Below are positions 20,507-54,450 of a DNA stretch of 64,000 bases, piece by piece (position 1 is the first letter of the stretch; each line of letters opens with the position of its first letter). Source of the stretch: Chitinophagales bacterium (GTDB lineage Bacteria > Bacteroidota > Bacteroidia > Chitinophagales > JADIYW01). Location of the stretch: contig JAGNZZ010000007.1 in the NCBI GenBank assembly GCA_017984135.1, positions 1-64,000 of the forward strand, read 5' to 3'. The notes under the pieces were generated by a model, which had not been told where the DNA came from, made no database searches, and saw only the letters and a list, made by a program, of their open reading frames with translations. Position numbers and translations under genes: made by a program.

Positions 20507-20537
20507 CCGTTTAAGAACTAAAATTACCGTCTGCTAA
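20507..20537 (+). promoter_or_regulatory. Paired direct-repeat element, copy 1 (putative LytTR activator site)
   Basis: Two half-sites start with CCGT at 20507 (CCGTTTAAG) and 20527 (CCGTCTGCT), a period of exactly 20 bp. A near -7 box TAATTTTA (20567-20574) lies about 30 bases downstream and the ATG at 20595. From 20507 to 20535 it matches 22 of 29 positions of the element at 50718-50746. Tandem half-sites about two helical turns apart directly upstream of the core promoter are the known geometry of LytTR-family activators. A LytTR regulator is encoded at 20962. Binding is inferred. Confidence 0.6.
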
Positions 20538-20594
20538 TTATAAAAACAATTTGTTTGAGTTGGGTATAATTTTACATCAACAAAAACAAATAAC

Positions 20595-20849
20595 ATGAAA
20601 AATTTAATCAAAAGAGCAGATGCAGTTAATCAATCATTAATTGCTCGCACAGCACCAAAAACATCAAAAGCCTTATTTTTAATTTTAATGATTACTGTCG
20701 CTTTCTTTAGCTCCTGTGCACGACAAAGTGCAAGTGGTTGTGGCGCTTGGATTTGCAAAAGCAACATGAAAATGCAAAATGATAAAAAATATCAAAAACA
20801 TATCGTAAATATTTATAAATGCCCATCCGCAGTTGCATCTGCAAGATGA
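20595..20849 (+). CDS. Small Cys-containing protein, possible lipoprotein
   Basis: 84 residues, not recognised. A basic N-terminal stretch of about 25 residues precedes a hydrophobic segment (ALFLILMITVAFF) ending in SSC, with Cys41 as a possible lipobox cysteine. The long N region is unusual for a lipoprotein. The mature part is short, basic and contains a CGAWIC motif and one more Cys. It is preceded by the direct-repeat element at 20507 and followed by a strong terminator, so it is a single-gene unit. The next gene is the LytTR regulator. Confidence 0.7.
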   Translation: MKNLIKRADAVNQSLIARTAPKTSKALFLILMITVAFFSSCARQSASGCGAWICKSNMKMQNDKKYQKHIVNIYKCPSAVASAR

Positions 20850-20961: not shown

Positions 20962-21741
20962 ATGAATACTTTAATTGTAGAAGATGATCCCATTTTTAGG
21001 GATATGCTTTTGGAAATGCTGCCGAAAGCCTCAGTAAAAACAAATGTTAAGGCTTCTTGCCCAACACTCAGGCAAGCCAAAGAAGCATTGGCACAACACA
21101 AACCACAATTGCTTTTATTAGATGTGGAACTACCAGATGGTAAAGGTGTAGAATTGCTACAAGAATTTGAGGAGCATGAACACGGCGATTTTGAAACTAT
21201 TTTTATTACTTCACATGACAAGTATGCCATTGAAGCCATTAAGAAAAATGCAACAGACTATTTGTTAAAACCGATTAAGTTATCAGAACTTAATCAGGCA
21301 TTACAGAAAGTAAAACGCAGAATTGAAGCGTATGAAAAATTATTGAAAGTGGATGAATTGTCCAATCATGTTGAAAAATTGGATAAGCAAAATCTTCAAG
21401 AGCAAAAATTGATGATTAATACCAATGATGGTACTATTTTTATTAAAGTAAAGGATATCATCAAATTGGAGTCAGAGAGTAATTACACGGTTTTTTATTT
21501 AGAAAACAACAAAAAAGTAATTGCCTCTAAAACCTTATCCGTTTTTGAAGAAATTTTAGAAAGTTTAAATTTTATGCGAATCCATCGCTCGTATGTAGTA
21601 AATCTTACAAAAATTTTGAATATCGAAAATAATTCGAATAATTACTTTACACAATTAAGCGATGGAAGTAAAGTTGAAATATCTAGAAGAAAGAAAAAAG
21701 ATTTTTTTGAGAAAATTACAGTAAATCACAATAATACATAA
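20962..21741 (+). CDS. LytTR-family response regulator
   Basis: 259 residues. The receiver domain has the acidic pair in IVEDDP, the phospho-acceptor Asp54 in LLLDVELPDG and the conserved Lys in YLLKPIK. The C-terminal domain from about residue 145 to 250 is LytTR: IFIKVKDIIKLESESNYTVF ... FMRIHRSYVVNLTKI ... LSDGSKVEISRRKK. LytTR domains bind tandem direct repeats and usually activate transcription. No histidine kinase gene adjoins it. The direct-repeat element 0.4 kb upstream, shared with a second promoter at 50.7 kb, is a plausible target. Confidence 0.93.
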   Translation: MNTLIVEDDPIFRDMLLEMLPKASVKTNVKASCPTLRQAKEALAQHKPQLLLLDVELPDGKGVELLQEFEEHEHGDFETIFITSHDKYAIEAIKKNATDYLLKPIKLSELNQALQKVKRRIEAYEKLLKVDELSNHVEKLDKQNLQEQKLMINTNDGTIFIKVKDIIKLESESNYTVFYLENNKKVIASKTLSVFEEILESLNFMRIHRSYVVNLTKILNIENNSNNYFTQLSDGSKVEISRRKKKDFFEKITVNHNNT

Positions 21742-48969: not shown

Positions 48970-50601
48970 ATGCCAAATAAAATTGCACTTATTCCAATTC
49001 CGGCGAACGAACCGATATTAGGTTATATGCCGAATAGTCCAGAACGTAAAGCATTGAAAGCAGAGTTGAATAGACGTAAATCAATGGAATACGACATACC
49101 GATGTTTATTAATGGAAAAGAAGTGCGAACCGGAAATTTGATAAACATGTTTCCACCACATGAATTATCTCATAAAATTGGACAATATCATAAAGGAAAT
49201 GCAGCACATGTTCATCAAGCCATTGATGCTGCTTTACAAGCTAGACAAAAATGGGCAAATATGCATTGGGAAGATAGAGCTTCCATTTTTCTTAAAGCAG
49301 CCGATTTAATTGCAGGTCCATATCGCGCAGCCATTAATGCGGCAACCATGTTGGCACAATCTAAAAATGCATTTCAAGCAGAAATTGATGCAGCTTGTGA
49401 GTTGGCAGATTTCTTGCGCTTTAATGTCTATTTTGCGGCACAAATTTATAGCGAACAACCTATTTCTTCTCCAGGAATGCGCAATACCATCGAGTATCGT
49501 CCATTAGAAGGATTTGTGTATGCTATTACTCCATTTAATTTCACCGCAATTTCGGGTAATTTATCCGCATCGCCAATAATGATGGGAAATGTAGTGGTGT
49601 GGAAGCCATCGAATACACAAATTTATTCGGCTTGGACAGTGATGGAAATATTCAGAGAAGCCGGCTTGCCTGATGGCGTTCTAAATATGGTTTTTGCCAA
49701 TGCATCAGAAACGACCGATATCATTTTGTCGCATCGTGAATTTGCAGGTGTACATTTTACAGGATCCACCGGCGTATTTAATAGTATTTGGGAAACAATT
49801 GGAAAAAATTTACATCAATATAAAAATTACCCAAGAATAGTTGGTGAAACAGGTGGAAAAGATTTCATCTTTGCGCATCCAAGTGCGGATGTAGATGTGT
49901 TGGCAACTGCATTGTTGCGCGGTTCGTTTGAGTTTCAAGGTCAAAAATGTTCGGCTTGTTCACGTGCGTATGTGCCTAAATCTATTTGGGATGCTACATG
50001 GGAAAAAATGTACAACGCATTAAAAACATTTAAAATTGGCAATGTAGAAAATTTCACGGTAATGATGGGCGCAGTAATTTCTGAAGCGGCTTACAACCGA
50101 ATTACTCGATACATTGAGCAAGCAAAAGCTAATCCAGATAATATTATTATGTATGGTGGAAATTATGATAAGAAAAAAGGATACTTTATTGAGCCAACGG
50201 TTATACTAACTAAAGATCCTAAATCTCTAACAATGGTAGAAGAAATTTTCGGACCTGTTCTTACTATTTATGTGTACGAAGATGAAATGGTTGAAGATGT
50301 ATTACATTTAGTTGATACTACTTCCGAGTATGCCTTAACTGGAGCTATTATTGCGCAAGATATGTATGCTGTGGAAAAAATGAAAAATGCGTTGACAAAT
50401 AGTGCCGGTAATTTTTATATCAATGATAAATGTACAGGTGCTGTGGTAGGACAACAACCGTTTGGTGGTGCGCGCAAAAGTGGCACCAACGATAAAGCCG
50501 GTAGTAAATGGAATTTATTGCGATGGGTTTCGCCAAGAACCGTGAAGGAAAATTACGTGCCAGCTAAATCCTATAATTACCCATATATGAGTGAAGAGTA
50601 A
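48970..50601 (+). CDS. pruA: L-glutamate gamma-semialdehyde dehydrogenase
   Basis: 543 residues of the aldehyde dehydrogenase superfamily. FTGSTGVFNSIWETIGKNL, the Glu in IVGETGGKDFIFAHP and the catalytic Cys in FEFQGQKCSACSRAYVP are present, and the C-terminal QQPFGGARKSGTNDKAGS fits the P5C dehydrogenase group. It oxidises glutamate semialdehyde to glutamate, the second step of proline use. The proline dehydrogenase gene is not in the window. Confidence 0.93.
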   Translation: MPNKIALIPIPANEPILGYMPNSPERKALKAELNRRKSMEYDIPMFINGKEVRTGNLINMFPPHELSHKIGQYHKGNAAHVHQAIDAALQARQKWANMHWEDRASIFLKAADLIAGPYRAAINAATMLAQSKNAFQAEIDAACELADFLRFNVYFAAQIYSEQPISSPGMRNTIEYRPLEGFVYAITPFNFTAISGNLSASPIMMGNVVVWKPSNTQIYSAWTVMEIFREAGLPDGVLNMVFANASETTDIILSHREFAGVHFTGSTGVFNSIWETIGKNLHQYKNYPRIVGETGGKDFIFAHPSADVDVLATALLRGSFEFQGQKCSACSRAYVPKSIWDATWEKMYNALKTFKIGNVENFTVMMGAVISEAAYNRITRYIEQAKANPDNIIMYGGNYDKKKGYFIEPTVILTKDPKSLTMVEEIFGPVLTIYVYEDEMVEDVLHLVDTTSEYALTGAIIAQDMYAVEKMKNALTNSAGNFYINDKCTGAVVGQQPFGGARKSGTNDKAGSKWNLLRWVSPRTVKENYVPAKSYNYPYMSEE

Positions 50602-50632
50602 AATTGGATAAAATAATATAAATATTTAAACG

Positions 50633-50666
50633 AAAGTCTGTAGAAAAACCTACAGGCTTTTTTATT
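50633..50666 (+). terminator. Rho-independent terminator after pruA
   Basis: AAAGTCTGTAG (50633-50643) pairs with CTACAGGCTTT (50650-50660) including one G-U, loop of 6, then T-rich tail. Confidence 0.88.
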
Positions 50667-50717
50667 TTTTTTCAAATCAGATATTTCAAATACAGCACCA
50701 GTTATACATTATAATTA

Positions 50718-50748
50718 CCGTTTACTCACTAAAAATGCCGTTTACTCA
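50718..50748 (+). promoter_or_regulatory. Paired direct-repeat element, copy 2 (putative LytTR activator site)
   Basis: Two identical 11-mers CCGTTTACTCA start at 50718 and 50738, a period of 20 bp. A near -7 box TAGATTTA (50780-50787) follows about 31 bases after the second copy, and ATG 50829 follows that. The first 29 bases match 22 positions of copy 1 at 20507-20535, including the spacer ACTAAAA. It lies in the 227-base gap after pruA and its terminator, and would control the two-gene unit at 50829-52299. Confidence 0.65.
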
Positions 50749-50828
50749 TTCTGTGTGTTAAATTTTTAAAATTTTCAATTAGATTTAGTTGAATTTTTTA
50801 TTTTTTAAAATCAATATATTCATAAATT

Positions 50829-51233
50829 ATGGCAAACGTAACAATTCAACTTTCATTTATTTCTGAAGCAAATAACGATAGTACGAGAAGACTTAAATCT
50901 AAGTATTATGTAAATTGTTTTTTATTAAACCAAGTAGATGCTAATGGTCAACCACTTAAGAGAGGATTGTATCAACCTAAAATTAATTTAGATGATGGAA
51001 TTTTGTACCCATTAGGACAAGTGAATGAGAATGATAAAGTCGTAGAATTAGAAATTTGGATAGATGATAAAAAACCTATAAGCCGTACAAGTGAAAGTAA
51101 AATTGTAAAAATTCCTTTATCAAGCTATAAAACGAATAAATATAATACGGTAAGAATTTTAATAGAAGAAAAATACAATCCTGCAGGTCAATTAATGAGA
51201 ATCGTGCAACCAGGTTGGCCTAAAACAGTTTAG
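50829..51233 (+). CDS. Unknown protein paired with the M35-type peptidase
   Basis: 134 residues, not recognised. Likely all-beta (VTIQLSFISEANND, KSKYYVNCFLLNQVDANGQP, VVELEIWIDDKK, NTVRILIEEKYNPAGQ). No signal peptide, membrane segment or Cys pair. It is the first gene of a two-gene unit under the direct-repeat element, 19 bases before the peptidase gene. It could be a partner, inhibitor or carrier of the peptidase; nothing in the sequence decides. Confidence 0.7.
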   Translation: MANVTIQLSFISEANNDSTRRLKSKYYVNCFLLNQVDANGQPLKRGLYQPKINLDDGILYPLGQVNENDKVVELEIWIDDKKPISRTSESKIVKIPLSSYKTNKYNTVRILIEEKYNPAGQLMRIVQPGWPKTV

Positions 51234-51252
51234 TATAAAGATATAAATATTA

Positions 51253-52299
51253 ATGGGTTTATCCAATAAAATTGAATTCAACTATTCTATAAGTGATATT
51301 GATTATAGAAATCTAAATATCAATCTTGATTTTAGTGTATATAATAATTCAGAAGTAACGGTATATTTTTCACGTAGAAATACACCTTTTGATAACTATT
51401 TAGATAATTGTTTTGAAATATTATTTAATAACGATAGTGTATTAAGGTTTGATGGATACTACGTAAAGCGTTTTGATGAAAACGCAGATGATATAATAAC
51501 ACTTAAACCTAAAGAAAAATTAAGCACAAGAATCAACATTAGTGATTCGTATAATTTTTCATTAATTGGTAATTATACCATTTCCTATAAAGTTAAAAAT
51601 TTTAAGTATTACATAAACGTCCACTCATTCTTTAAATATAAAGAACAGTGTCATTCATTTGAATTAATTAATCCTTCTGCTTCTTTTCAATTCACTCAAA
51701 AATCACTATTGTTTACTACTATAGGCGAAAGGTTTAGAATTTTAAATAAAGATTTTATATTAACAGATAGAATACAATTTATAAATTCAAATGATGAACA
51801 AAAGCATAAAATAATTGATTTGATAGATGAGATTATCCATTTTTTTAATCATACGTTTCAGCTAAATCAGGATAAACTATTTATTAAGTGGTTTGGAGAA
51901 AAGTTTGATGAAAATTTAGAAAAAGTTAAAAATAATTTTTTGTTTATTTTTGATAAAGTAGAAACGAAAAATGTATCATTTATTATTGATAATAACCTAA
52001 AAAGTAATCAAAATGATTGGTATGCAGTAACGTATTATAACAGTAATTCAATAACATTGTTTCCGCCATTTTGGAATAAAAGTATGGATAAAGGTTTTAA
52101 TTCTAAATTAGGGATTCTTATACATGAATTTAGCCACATGGCTTGTGAATCAAATGATAATTCAACTTCTGTTTGTGATAGTTTGGGACTTGCAAAACAT
52201 AATCCTGACGAGGCAATTACATCTGCAAATAATTATGAATATTATGTAGAAGATTTATTATGGTCGCCAAAATTAAACGATCCGTGTGATTTTTCTTAA
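51253..52299 (+). CDS. M35-like (aspzincin) metalloendopeptidase
   Basis: 348 residues. The N-terminal ~115 residues form a beta-sandwich resembling the N-terminal domain of bacterial M35 proteases (FSRRNTPFDNYLDNCFEI, FDGYYVKRFDENADDIITL). The C-terminal catalytic domain has HEFSH (His291, Glu292, His295) and a likely third zinc ligand Asp302, then AITSANNYEYYVEDLLW, matching the NADNYEYF region of deuterolysin-like enzymes. The canonical GTxDxxYG is altered. There is no signal peptide. Its last 27 bases overlap the convergent hybrid kinase gene. Confidence 0.75.
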   Translation: MGLSNKIEFNYSISDIDYRNLNINLDFSVYNNSEVTVYFSRRNTPFDNYLDNCFEILFNNDSVLRFDGYYVKRFDENADDIITLKPKEKLSTRINISDSYNFSLIGNYTISYKVKNFKYYINVHSFFKYKEQCHSFELINPSASFQFTQKSLLFTTIGERFRILNKDFILTDRIQFINSNDEQKHKIIDLIDEIIHFFNHTFQLNQDKLFIKWFGEKFDENLEKVKNNFLFIFDKVETKNVSFIIDNNLKSNQNDWYAVTYYNSNSITLFPPFWNKSMDKGFNSKLGILIHEFSHMACESNDNSTSVCDSLGLAKHNPDEAITSANNYEYYVEDLLWSPKLNDPCDFS

Positions 52300-54450
52300 T
52301 AATTCATCTGCTTTAAAAGGTTTGTAAATAAAATCATCAAAGCCGATGGTTTGTAAATCTTCATCTGTAAAAGTGGACAACGAAGCCGTATTGCCTATAA
52401 TTTTAACGTGTTGATAGTTTTTATTTTGCCTAATTTTTTGAGTAGCTTCAATGCCATTCATGTTCGGCATATCCAAATCGGTAAAAATAATATCTGGAAT
52501 TTTCTTAAACATTAAATGAATAATTTCGGTTCCATCTTCCGCTTCCATAATTTTAATGGTATTATTAAAGCTCAATAAAATTTCTTTAGCGACCAATCTG
52601 TTTTCTTCATTGTCGTCAGCTATTAAAATAATTTTGTTTGTTAATAATTCTGAATTTAATATTTCTTTATTTTCAATTAATTCAATTTGTTGTTGTGGTA
52701 GATTGAATGGAATTGAAATAGTAAATTCTGTTCCGTGATTTGGTTTGCTTTTTACATCAATTTTACCATGTAAAACTTCCACAATTTTTTTGGAGATAGA
52801 TAACCCTAAACCAGTTCCACCAAATTTCCGGTGAATGGTTTTGTCGGCTTGTTCAAATCTATTAAAAATGGAATGAATATTTTCTTTGGCGATACCAATT
52901 CCAGTATCTTGAATGTGAAAATCTAAAACAATAGATTCAGTCGTTTTTTCTTTAATGCTAAGCGTAAATTTTACACCACCAACAGTTGTAAATTTAATGG
53001 CATTCGATACAAAGTTCAATAAAATCTGATAGATTCGAATGGCATCACCAATAACGTGAATATCTTTTTTGTATTTTTTAAAGACTTCTAATTTTATATT
53101 TTTTTCTAAAGCCTTTGGCTCTAAAGCATCAAAAACATCACGGAGAATAGTATTCAATGAAAATACTTCCTGATTTAATTCTATTTTTCCCGATTCAATT
53201 TTGGAAATATCTAATACATCATTAATAATACCTAATAAATTTTCGCCAGAACGTTTCAGTCGAAGTATGTAATTGCGTTGAATGTCATTTAATGCTTGTT
53301 GTTCCATTAAATAACAAATTCCCAATACACTGTTTATTGGTGTTCTAATTTCGTGGCTCATGTTCGCTAAAAAATCATGCTTAATATTGGCTAATTTTTC
53401 AGCATTATTTTTTTCAATGTTTAAGAGTTTTACATTTTCAATAATTTCTAAGTTTTTAATTTGCTTGCCGGTTTCTAAATTATATATTTCATCACTTAGT
53501 TTTTTGTATTTTTTATAATAAGATAATGATTTTTTGTACTCATTTTTCTGTTCATATAAATTCGATAGTAAATGATATACATCGGTTAAATTTGATTTTA
53601 TTACCTCATTTTTTGAAAACAATAACACCTCATTTAAAACTTTTTCAGCCTCTGAAAATTGTTGTGTTTTTAAACACACTTCGGCATACATTATCTTTAC
53701 TTGATGCTCATCATTTGTATTATTAAGTTGATGATATTGTTTTATAGAATTCAAATAAAACCGAATGGCATCATCATACTTTTTCTTCTTGGTAAATAAA
53801 ATTCCCAAATTTGAATTCGCTAATGCGATGAAATTATTGAACTCATTTTCTTTTGCAATATCAAAACCTTTATTTAAAATCTTTTCAGCTTCTTTCAGTT
53901 CATTATATTCTATTAAATGACCCGAATACGTTATATAAATCATAGCAAGAGAATATAGATTATTACTCTTTTTGCTATACTCAATGGCTTTTTGAAACGC
54001 TTGAATACATTCCTGTTTTTGGTTTTGTAAATAATACTGATACGCTTGATTTAAAAATGCACTGAATAATTGAATAGGATCATTAAATTCTAAAGCAATA
54101 TCTATTTGTTCATTTACTAATGCTTGTGCAGTTTCTAAATTACCTAAATAACGCTGAATACGATATTGGTTACTGATGGCATTAAGTAAAGATTCTAAAT
54201 TATTACTTTTTTTTGCATATTTTTTAGCTACTTCCGTTTGTATCCAAGCCTGACCATATTCACCTAAATCTATATAATATAATGATAGATGAATGTAAAT
54301 AAACGGAATTAAATCTTCTCTTTTATGAGTTTCTATTAATTGTTTACATATATTTAGTTTGTTCAATAATTCATCATTGCTCACCCAATTGTCAGAACGT
54401 TTTAAATTCTTTACAAATACGTCTGCTTGTTCTATGGTTGTTATTTCCAT
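52273..54450 (-). CDS. Soluble TPR-containing hybrid sensor histidine kinase
   Basis: 725 residues. TPR-like helical repeats fill about residues 1-330. A HisKA domain follows with the H-box FLANMSHEIRTPINSVLG (His366), then HATPase_c with LLNFVSNAIKF, DTGIGIAKENI and GGTGLGLSISKKIVEVL. A C-terminal receiver carries Asp658 in IIFTDLDMPNMNG. There are no membrane segments or signal peptide, so it senses an internal cue. Its 3' end overlaps that of the M35 peptidase gene. A near -7 box TAGATTTA lies upstream on the minus strand (54464-54471). Confidence 0.93.
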   Translation of the reverse strand: MEITTIEQADVFVKNLKRSDNWVSNDELLNKLNICKQLIETHKREDLIPFIYIHLSLYYIDLGEYGQAWIQTEVAKKYAKKSNNLESLLNAISNQYRIQRYLGNLETAQALVNEQIDIALEFNDPIQLFSAFLNQAYQYYLQNQKQECIQAFQKAIEYSKKSNNLYSLAMIYITYSGHLIEYNELKEAEKILNKGFDIAKENEFNNFIALANSNLGILFTKKKKYDDAIRFYLNSIKQYHQLNNTNDEHQVKIMYAEVCLKTQQFSEAEKVLNEVLLFSKNEVIKSNLTDVYHLLSNLYEQKNEYKKSLSYYKKYKKLSDEIYNLETGKQIKNLEIIENVKLLNIEKNNAEKLANIKHDFLANMSHEIRTPINSVLGICYLMEQQALNDIQRNYILRLKRSGENLLGIINDVLDISKIESGKIELNQEVFSLNTILRDVFDALEPKALEKNIKLEVFKKYKKDIHVIGDAIRIYQILLNFVSNAIKFTTVGGVKFTLSIKEKTTESIVLDFHIQDTGIGIAKENIHSIFNRFEQADKTIHRKFGGTGLGLSISKKIVEVLHGKIDVKSKPNHGTEFTISIPFNLPQQQIELIENKEILNSELLTNKIILIADDNEENRLVAKEILLSFNNTIKIMEAEDGTEIIHLMFKKIPDIIFTDLDMPNMNGIEATQKIRQNKNYQHVKIIGNTASLSTFTDEDLQTIGFDDFIYKPFKADELLRKITRIV

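Follow-up and report, generated by a model that had tools for sequence, protein, structure and literature searches.

A probable tandem LytTR operator with a candidate regulator and kinase in a Chitinophagales bacterium

Introduction

Sites of LytTR regulators are described as pairs of 9-bp direct repeats 10–13 bp apart (PMC11347149). The streptococcal repeat has the form ACCACTTAC-12-ACCACTTAC and is placed 10 bp before the -35 element, and LRS in S. mutans have competition-type targets (PMC6193735). Regulation from tandem LytTR sites is a known kind of control that is apparently undescribed in the Bacteroidota: no mapped LytTR binding motif for this phylum was found in the open-access literature, though the phylum has such regulators.

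The DNA analyzed here (the window) is a stretch of 64,000 nucleotides from a Chitinophagales bacterium, whose genome is designated G000. It carries two tandem elements (sites 1 and 2), the response regulator R1 and the hybrid histidine kinase HK1 (Table 1). Sites, their recurrence across the genus, their fixed spacing, the conservation of target promoters and the co-occurrence with R1 and HK1 were computed. We consider it probable that the elements form a tandem LytTR operator for R1 with HK1 as its likely signal input, site 1 serving autoregulation of the R1 cassette and site 2 driving the pair of genes for a 134-aa protein and an M35 peptidase. What is gained is a sequence motif, its geometry relative to the Bacteroidota -7 promoter, a named regulator-kinase candidate pair and a list of targets, by which many uncharacterized genes would acquire common control.

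R1 resembles regulators of the AgrA/AlgR/LytR type in its receiver and LytTR domains with an FhRhHRS motif, in ~9-bp direct repeats with an 11-bp spacer upstream of the promoter (within the 10–13 bp described for LytTR sites), and in probable autoregulation. It differs from them in its Bacteroidota promoter with an xxxxTTTA/G -7 box, in the half-site ACCRTTYAMTCA, in a TPR hybrid kinase (HK-REC) that is often encoded apart from the regulator, and in targets that differ strongly among sister species. LytTR regulators of LRS lack a receiver domain. R1 has one, and the partner encoded before it, 84 aa long and lipoprotein-like, is no multi-pass membrane protein, which places R1 outside the LRS. 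HdrRM and BrsRM nevertheless share with this locus nearly the same repeat, the same promoter distance and (here presumptive) autoregulation; in those LRS a membrane inhibitor is co-operonic with the LytTR regulator (PMC6193735), whereas no such partner was identified for R1. The ~33 bp from the end of the 9-bp repeat to the -7 box correspond approximately to the streptococcal 10 bp to -35 plus the -35 element and spacer (PMC6193735). CoxC/RcoM likewise use a LytTR domain on direct repeats at two-helical-turn intervals, three in their case and here possibly with a weak third; unlike the present system they have TTCNNGCA-type half-sites and gas-sensing N-termini, and CoxC represses (PMC11347149).

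Table 1. Coordinates of the elements, promoter boxes and genes in the window.
Feature	Position	Strand	Remarks
Site 1, degenerate tandem LytTR-type element	20507-20537	+	Half-sites 20507-20517 and 20527-20537
-7-like box TAATTTTA, site-1 promoter	20567-20574	+	+30 from site end
84-aa Cys-containing small lipoprotein-like protein	20595-20849	+	No Pfam/NCBIfam match
R1, response regulator	20962-21741	+	Receiver + LytTR domain, FMRIHRS motif; Pfam PF00072, PF04397
Weak third half-site CCAGTTATACA	50698-50708	+	One 20-bp period upstream of site 2
Site 2, perfect tandem element CCGTTTACTCA-N9-CCGTTTACTCA	50718-50748	+	N9 here is CTAAAAATG
-7-like box TAGATTTA, site-2 promoter	50780-50787	+	+32 from site end
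134-aa predicted all-beta protein	50829-51233	+	No family match (Pfam, NCBIfam)
Aspzincin_M35 metallo-endopeptidase	51253-52299	+	Pfam PF14521
HK1, TPR-HisKA-HATPase-REC hybrid histidine kinase	52273-54450	-	Beside the genes putatively controlled from site 2

Sites in the window

A first-pass annotation had reported an exact 20-bp period of the half-site at site 2 and a related pair at site 1, and both were borne out. In a repeat search, site 2 was the sole perfect 11-mer direct repeat with a 20-bp distance in the whole window. Site 1, laid out as CCGTTTAAGAA-CTAAAATTA-CCGTCTGCTAA upstream of the small lipoprotein/R1 cassette, has 22 of 29 bases in common with site 2 and was, site 2 itself aside, its best match in the window in a 29-base comparison. 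The -7 boxes claimed ~30 bases past both elements were also present. The weak third half-site upstream of site 2 scored slightly below the 99.9th percentile of background.

In 100 shuffles, the expected number of matches to a joint pattern of sites 1 and 2 was 0, also at a tolerance of 3 mismatches. Because this pattern had been taken from the two sites themselves, a separate test was run with an independent matrix trained on 23 sites, all from other genomes. Scores in the window were 38.9 at 50718, 26.2 at the overlapping position 50698 and 17.4 at 20507, followed by 8.8; the best score across 20 simulated windows was 16.1. A scan of the window's own genome with the half-site pattern at 2 mismatches (66 matches, 195 for the reversed control) was uninformative.

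The 134-aa protein gave a single-sequence structure model with a pLDDT of 72.6, and a fold search with it returned nothing significant. The M35 peptidase has no obvious signal peptide; relatives ~22–31% identical to it occur in Streptomyces, Polaromonas and Ruegeria plasmids.

Recurrence and promoter geometry across the genus

Eight congeneric genomes were scanned for CCRTTYAMTCA-N9-CCRTTYAMTCA at ≤3 mismatches, with the reversed pattern as control. There were 37 matches versus 1 for the control, and a stricter form of the motif gave 24 matches in 41 genomes versus 0. Several of the 24 stretches from the contig scan (L091, L094, L106, L109, L110) were set aside as low-complexity or coding chance matches. 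A 20-bp period was found in 9 of the 13 exact half-site pairs (gaps of 4–34), the other 4 having four different periods. To the question of whether the element lies mostly inside coding regions, the scan answered with almost exclusively intergenic, correctly oriented sites at a fixed distance from the -7 box; 22 of 25 sites had no overlap with an ORF of ≥60 aa. A TAnnTTT box started +30–32 after the second half-site at 11 of 33 sites (shuffle maximum 5; 0/400), and TTTA was present at +33–35 at 18 of 33 (shuffle maximum 9; 0/400). No -33 hexamer was visible in base counts at the matching position.

Between orthologous promoters, identity was 77% in half-sites, 46% in spacers and 35–39% in flanks, the half-site value being partly ascertained, as sites were found by motif matching. 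The spacer ACTAAAA noted in the first-pass annotation is indeed common to both elements of the window, but it varies from site to site and was ruled out as a component of the motif. A dispersed repeat or chance similarity with no regulatory role is extremely improbable: some weak G005 matches (C3, C8, C12:36572) do resemble chance and site 1 is degenerate, yet the matches far exceed the control, the half-sites are conserved where spacers and flanks are not, and the spacing to the -7 box is fixed. A mobile or viral repeat was rejected, as no viral contig has the element.

The same element was also seen before a gene that by eye resembles one for an ECF-type sigma factor in L090, L098, L102 and L104 (MAGs titled Chitinophaga pinensis, Bacteroidota and Bacteroidetes), and it precedes a 328-aa protein in L101 and L105 (Arcicella, Cytophagales). 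These occurrences suggest that sites of this type are not confined to the genus.

Genus recurrence, intergenic position and fixed -7 spacing support the earlier reading of a LytTR regulon. Regulators outside the LytTR family also use direct repeats with a period of about two turns, and the operator of, e.g., a LuxR-, MarR- or AraC-type activator could take this form. That origin is very unlikely, given that the half-site resembles known LytTR repeats, that the promoter geometry equals that of LytTR systems, that the R1 cassette itself has a site, and that the PAS-LuxR target described below is missing from G002, the genome with most sites.

The regulator

R1 matched PF00072 at an E-value of 3e-21 and PF04397 at 1e-20 (Pfam). 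It had been singled out as the only LytTR protein, which holds for the window; in the genome it is one of four. Preference is given to R1 because of its autoregulatory context and its co-occurrence with sites, not because of sole LytTR status. The cassette consists of a site, then an 84–90-aa lipoprotein-like protein, then R1, and its site is present in G000, G004 (C117) and G005 (C7); clear orthologs of the 84-aa protein were found in G004 and G005 only. Orthologs of R1 are present in G002, G004 and G005, with no site directly upstream of R1 in G002. Outside the genus, no relative of R1 above 40% identity was found among 299 sampled genomes of the order. Among complete genomes, G000, G002, G004 and G005 have R1, HK1 and sites, and G001 and G003 have none of the three, a co-occurrence that does not amount to independent evidence, the eight genomes being related. 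R1 is likely to be the regulator that binds and activates at these sites.

Alternatively, the regulator that reads this tandem site could be R2, the sister of R1 (G000 C34:54431; 48% identical to R1), alone or together with R1. The kinases of R1 and R2 are related, and no genome with sites lacks R2; it also occurs in the incomplete G007 (3 sites) and G006 (1 site, weak and well spaced), in which R1 was not seen. We regard a role of R2 as unlikely: R2-HK2 occurs in the complete genome G003, which is devoid of sites, the R2-HK2 intergenic regions showed no such repeat where the R1 cassette has one in three species, and the position of the DNA-contacting residue N201 of AgrA (PMC4227749) falls in HRS in R1 and in HQS in R2.

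With R1 as the preferred regulator, two subunits would sit immediately upstream of the promoter on the ACCRTTYAM(TCA) half-sites, separated by two helical turns along the same DNA face. Bound R1 could then bring RNA polymerase to -7 boxes with no visible -33 hexamer.

The kinase

HK1 had been overlooked in the first-pass annotation and lies 31 kb from R1. Its counterpart in G002 (C53) lies after hemE, next to R1 and divergent from it. In G007 too, HK1 comes after hemE, and the contig breaks off 38 bp ahead of its start codon, at the place where G002 has R1. The HK1 clade is restricted to genomes with sites (G000, G002, G004, G005 and G007). The sister pair HK2-R2 is adjacent in 7 genomes, the G000 copy being on C34, and by analogy with these paralogs HK1 would again be expected to pair with R1. 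G000 (C50) and G005 (C13) each have one more kinase of the HK1 clade, and the assignment of partners is therefore not unique. Genome context makes HK1 the likely cognate kinase of R1, which it would phosphorylate.

Targets in the window genome and its relatives

Besides sites 1 and 2, the sites of the window genome are C49:92914, before a lipoprotein gene, and C25:38385, before a gene for a PAS-LuxR regulator. If the explanation by R1 and HK1 is right as a whole, as it probably is, at least these two further promoters of G000 would belong to the regulon. In G000, G004 and G005 the ATG follows the site by 54–55 bases for the PAS-LuxR regulator and by 69–70 bases for the lipoprotein; site-to-ATG spacing is near constant at these conserved targets while the flanks diverge.

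Other targets vary by species, the whole set comprising lipoproteins, the PAS-LuxR regulator, a peptidase, patatin, PLD, SpvB/TcdB-RHS proteins and tiny ORFs. The largest set behind sites is that of G002, with an SpvB/TcdB-mid/RHS protein, a patatin-containing gene cluster, a PLD-like protein, a protein with a T9SS tail and a NarL-type regulator. This cargo suggests surface and competition functions. The slot downstream of pruA, where site 2 lies in G000, has in G004 a 0-mismatch site followed by a different gene (147 aa), and in G005 no site and another gene pair (for a 131-aa protein and an M48-like one). It is conceivable, though we hold it doubtful, that R1-HK1 commands a fast-evolving exo-protein or antagonism regulon, in which operator and promoter stay, the genes behind them are exchanged, and tiny ORFs or short terminator-bounded RNAs follow elsewhere.

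Several further observations were made at individual sites. Downstream of pruA (window 48970-50829, L036), different species have the site and promoter in common, and the genes that follow differ. A site copy stands in front of a 2528-aa SpvB/TcdB-middle/RHS protein (L145:3269-10855; G002 C98). A conserved ORF of 28–29 aa directly follows the site in L193 (G004 C78; MEPHELIM...SVWFCFY) and L194 (G005 C4; MEVQEFIM...SWLCFY), and a terminator apparently comes after it. An Rfam search of the short putative transcripts gave no match except the neighboring tmRNA. Upstream of dnaE in L195 (G007 C337) and L196 (G002 C1), the site is followed by a putative, terminator-bounded transcript of ~150 nt with no clear ORF, possibly a small RNA; the terminator loop TGCAATG is common to both.
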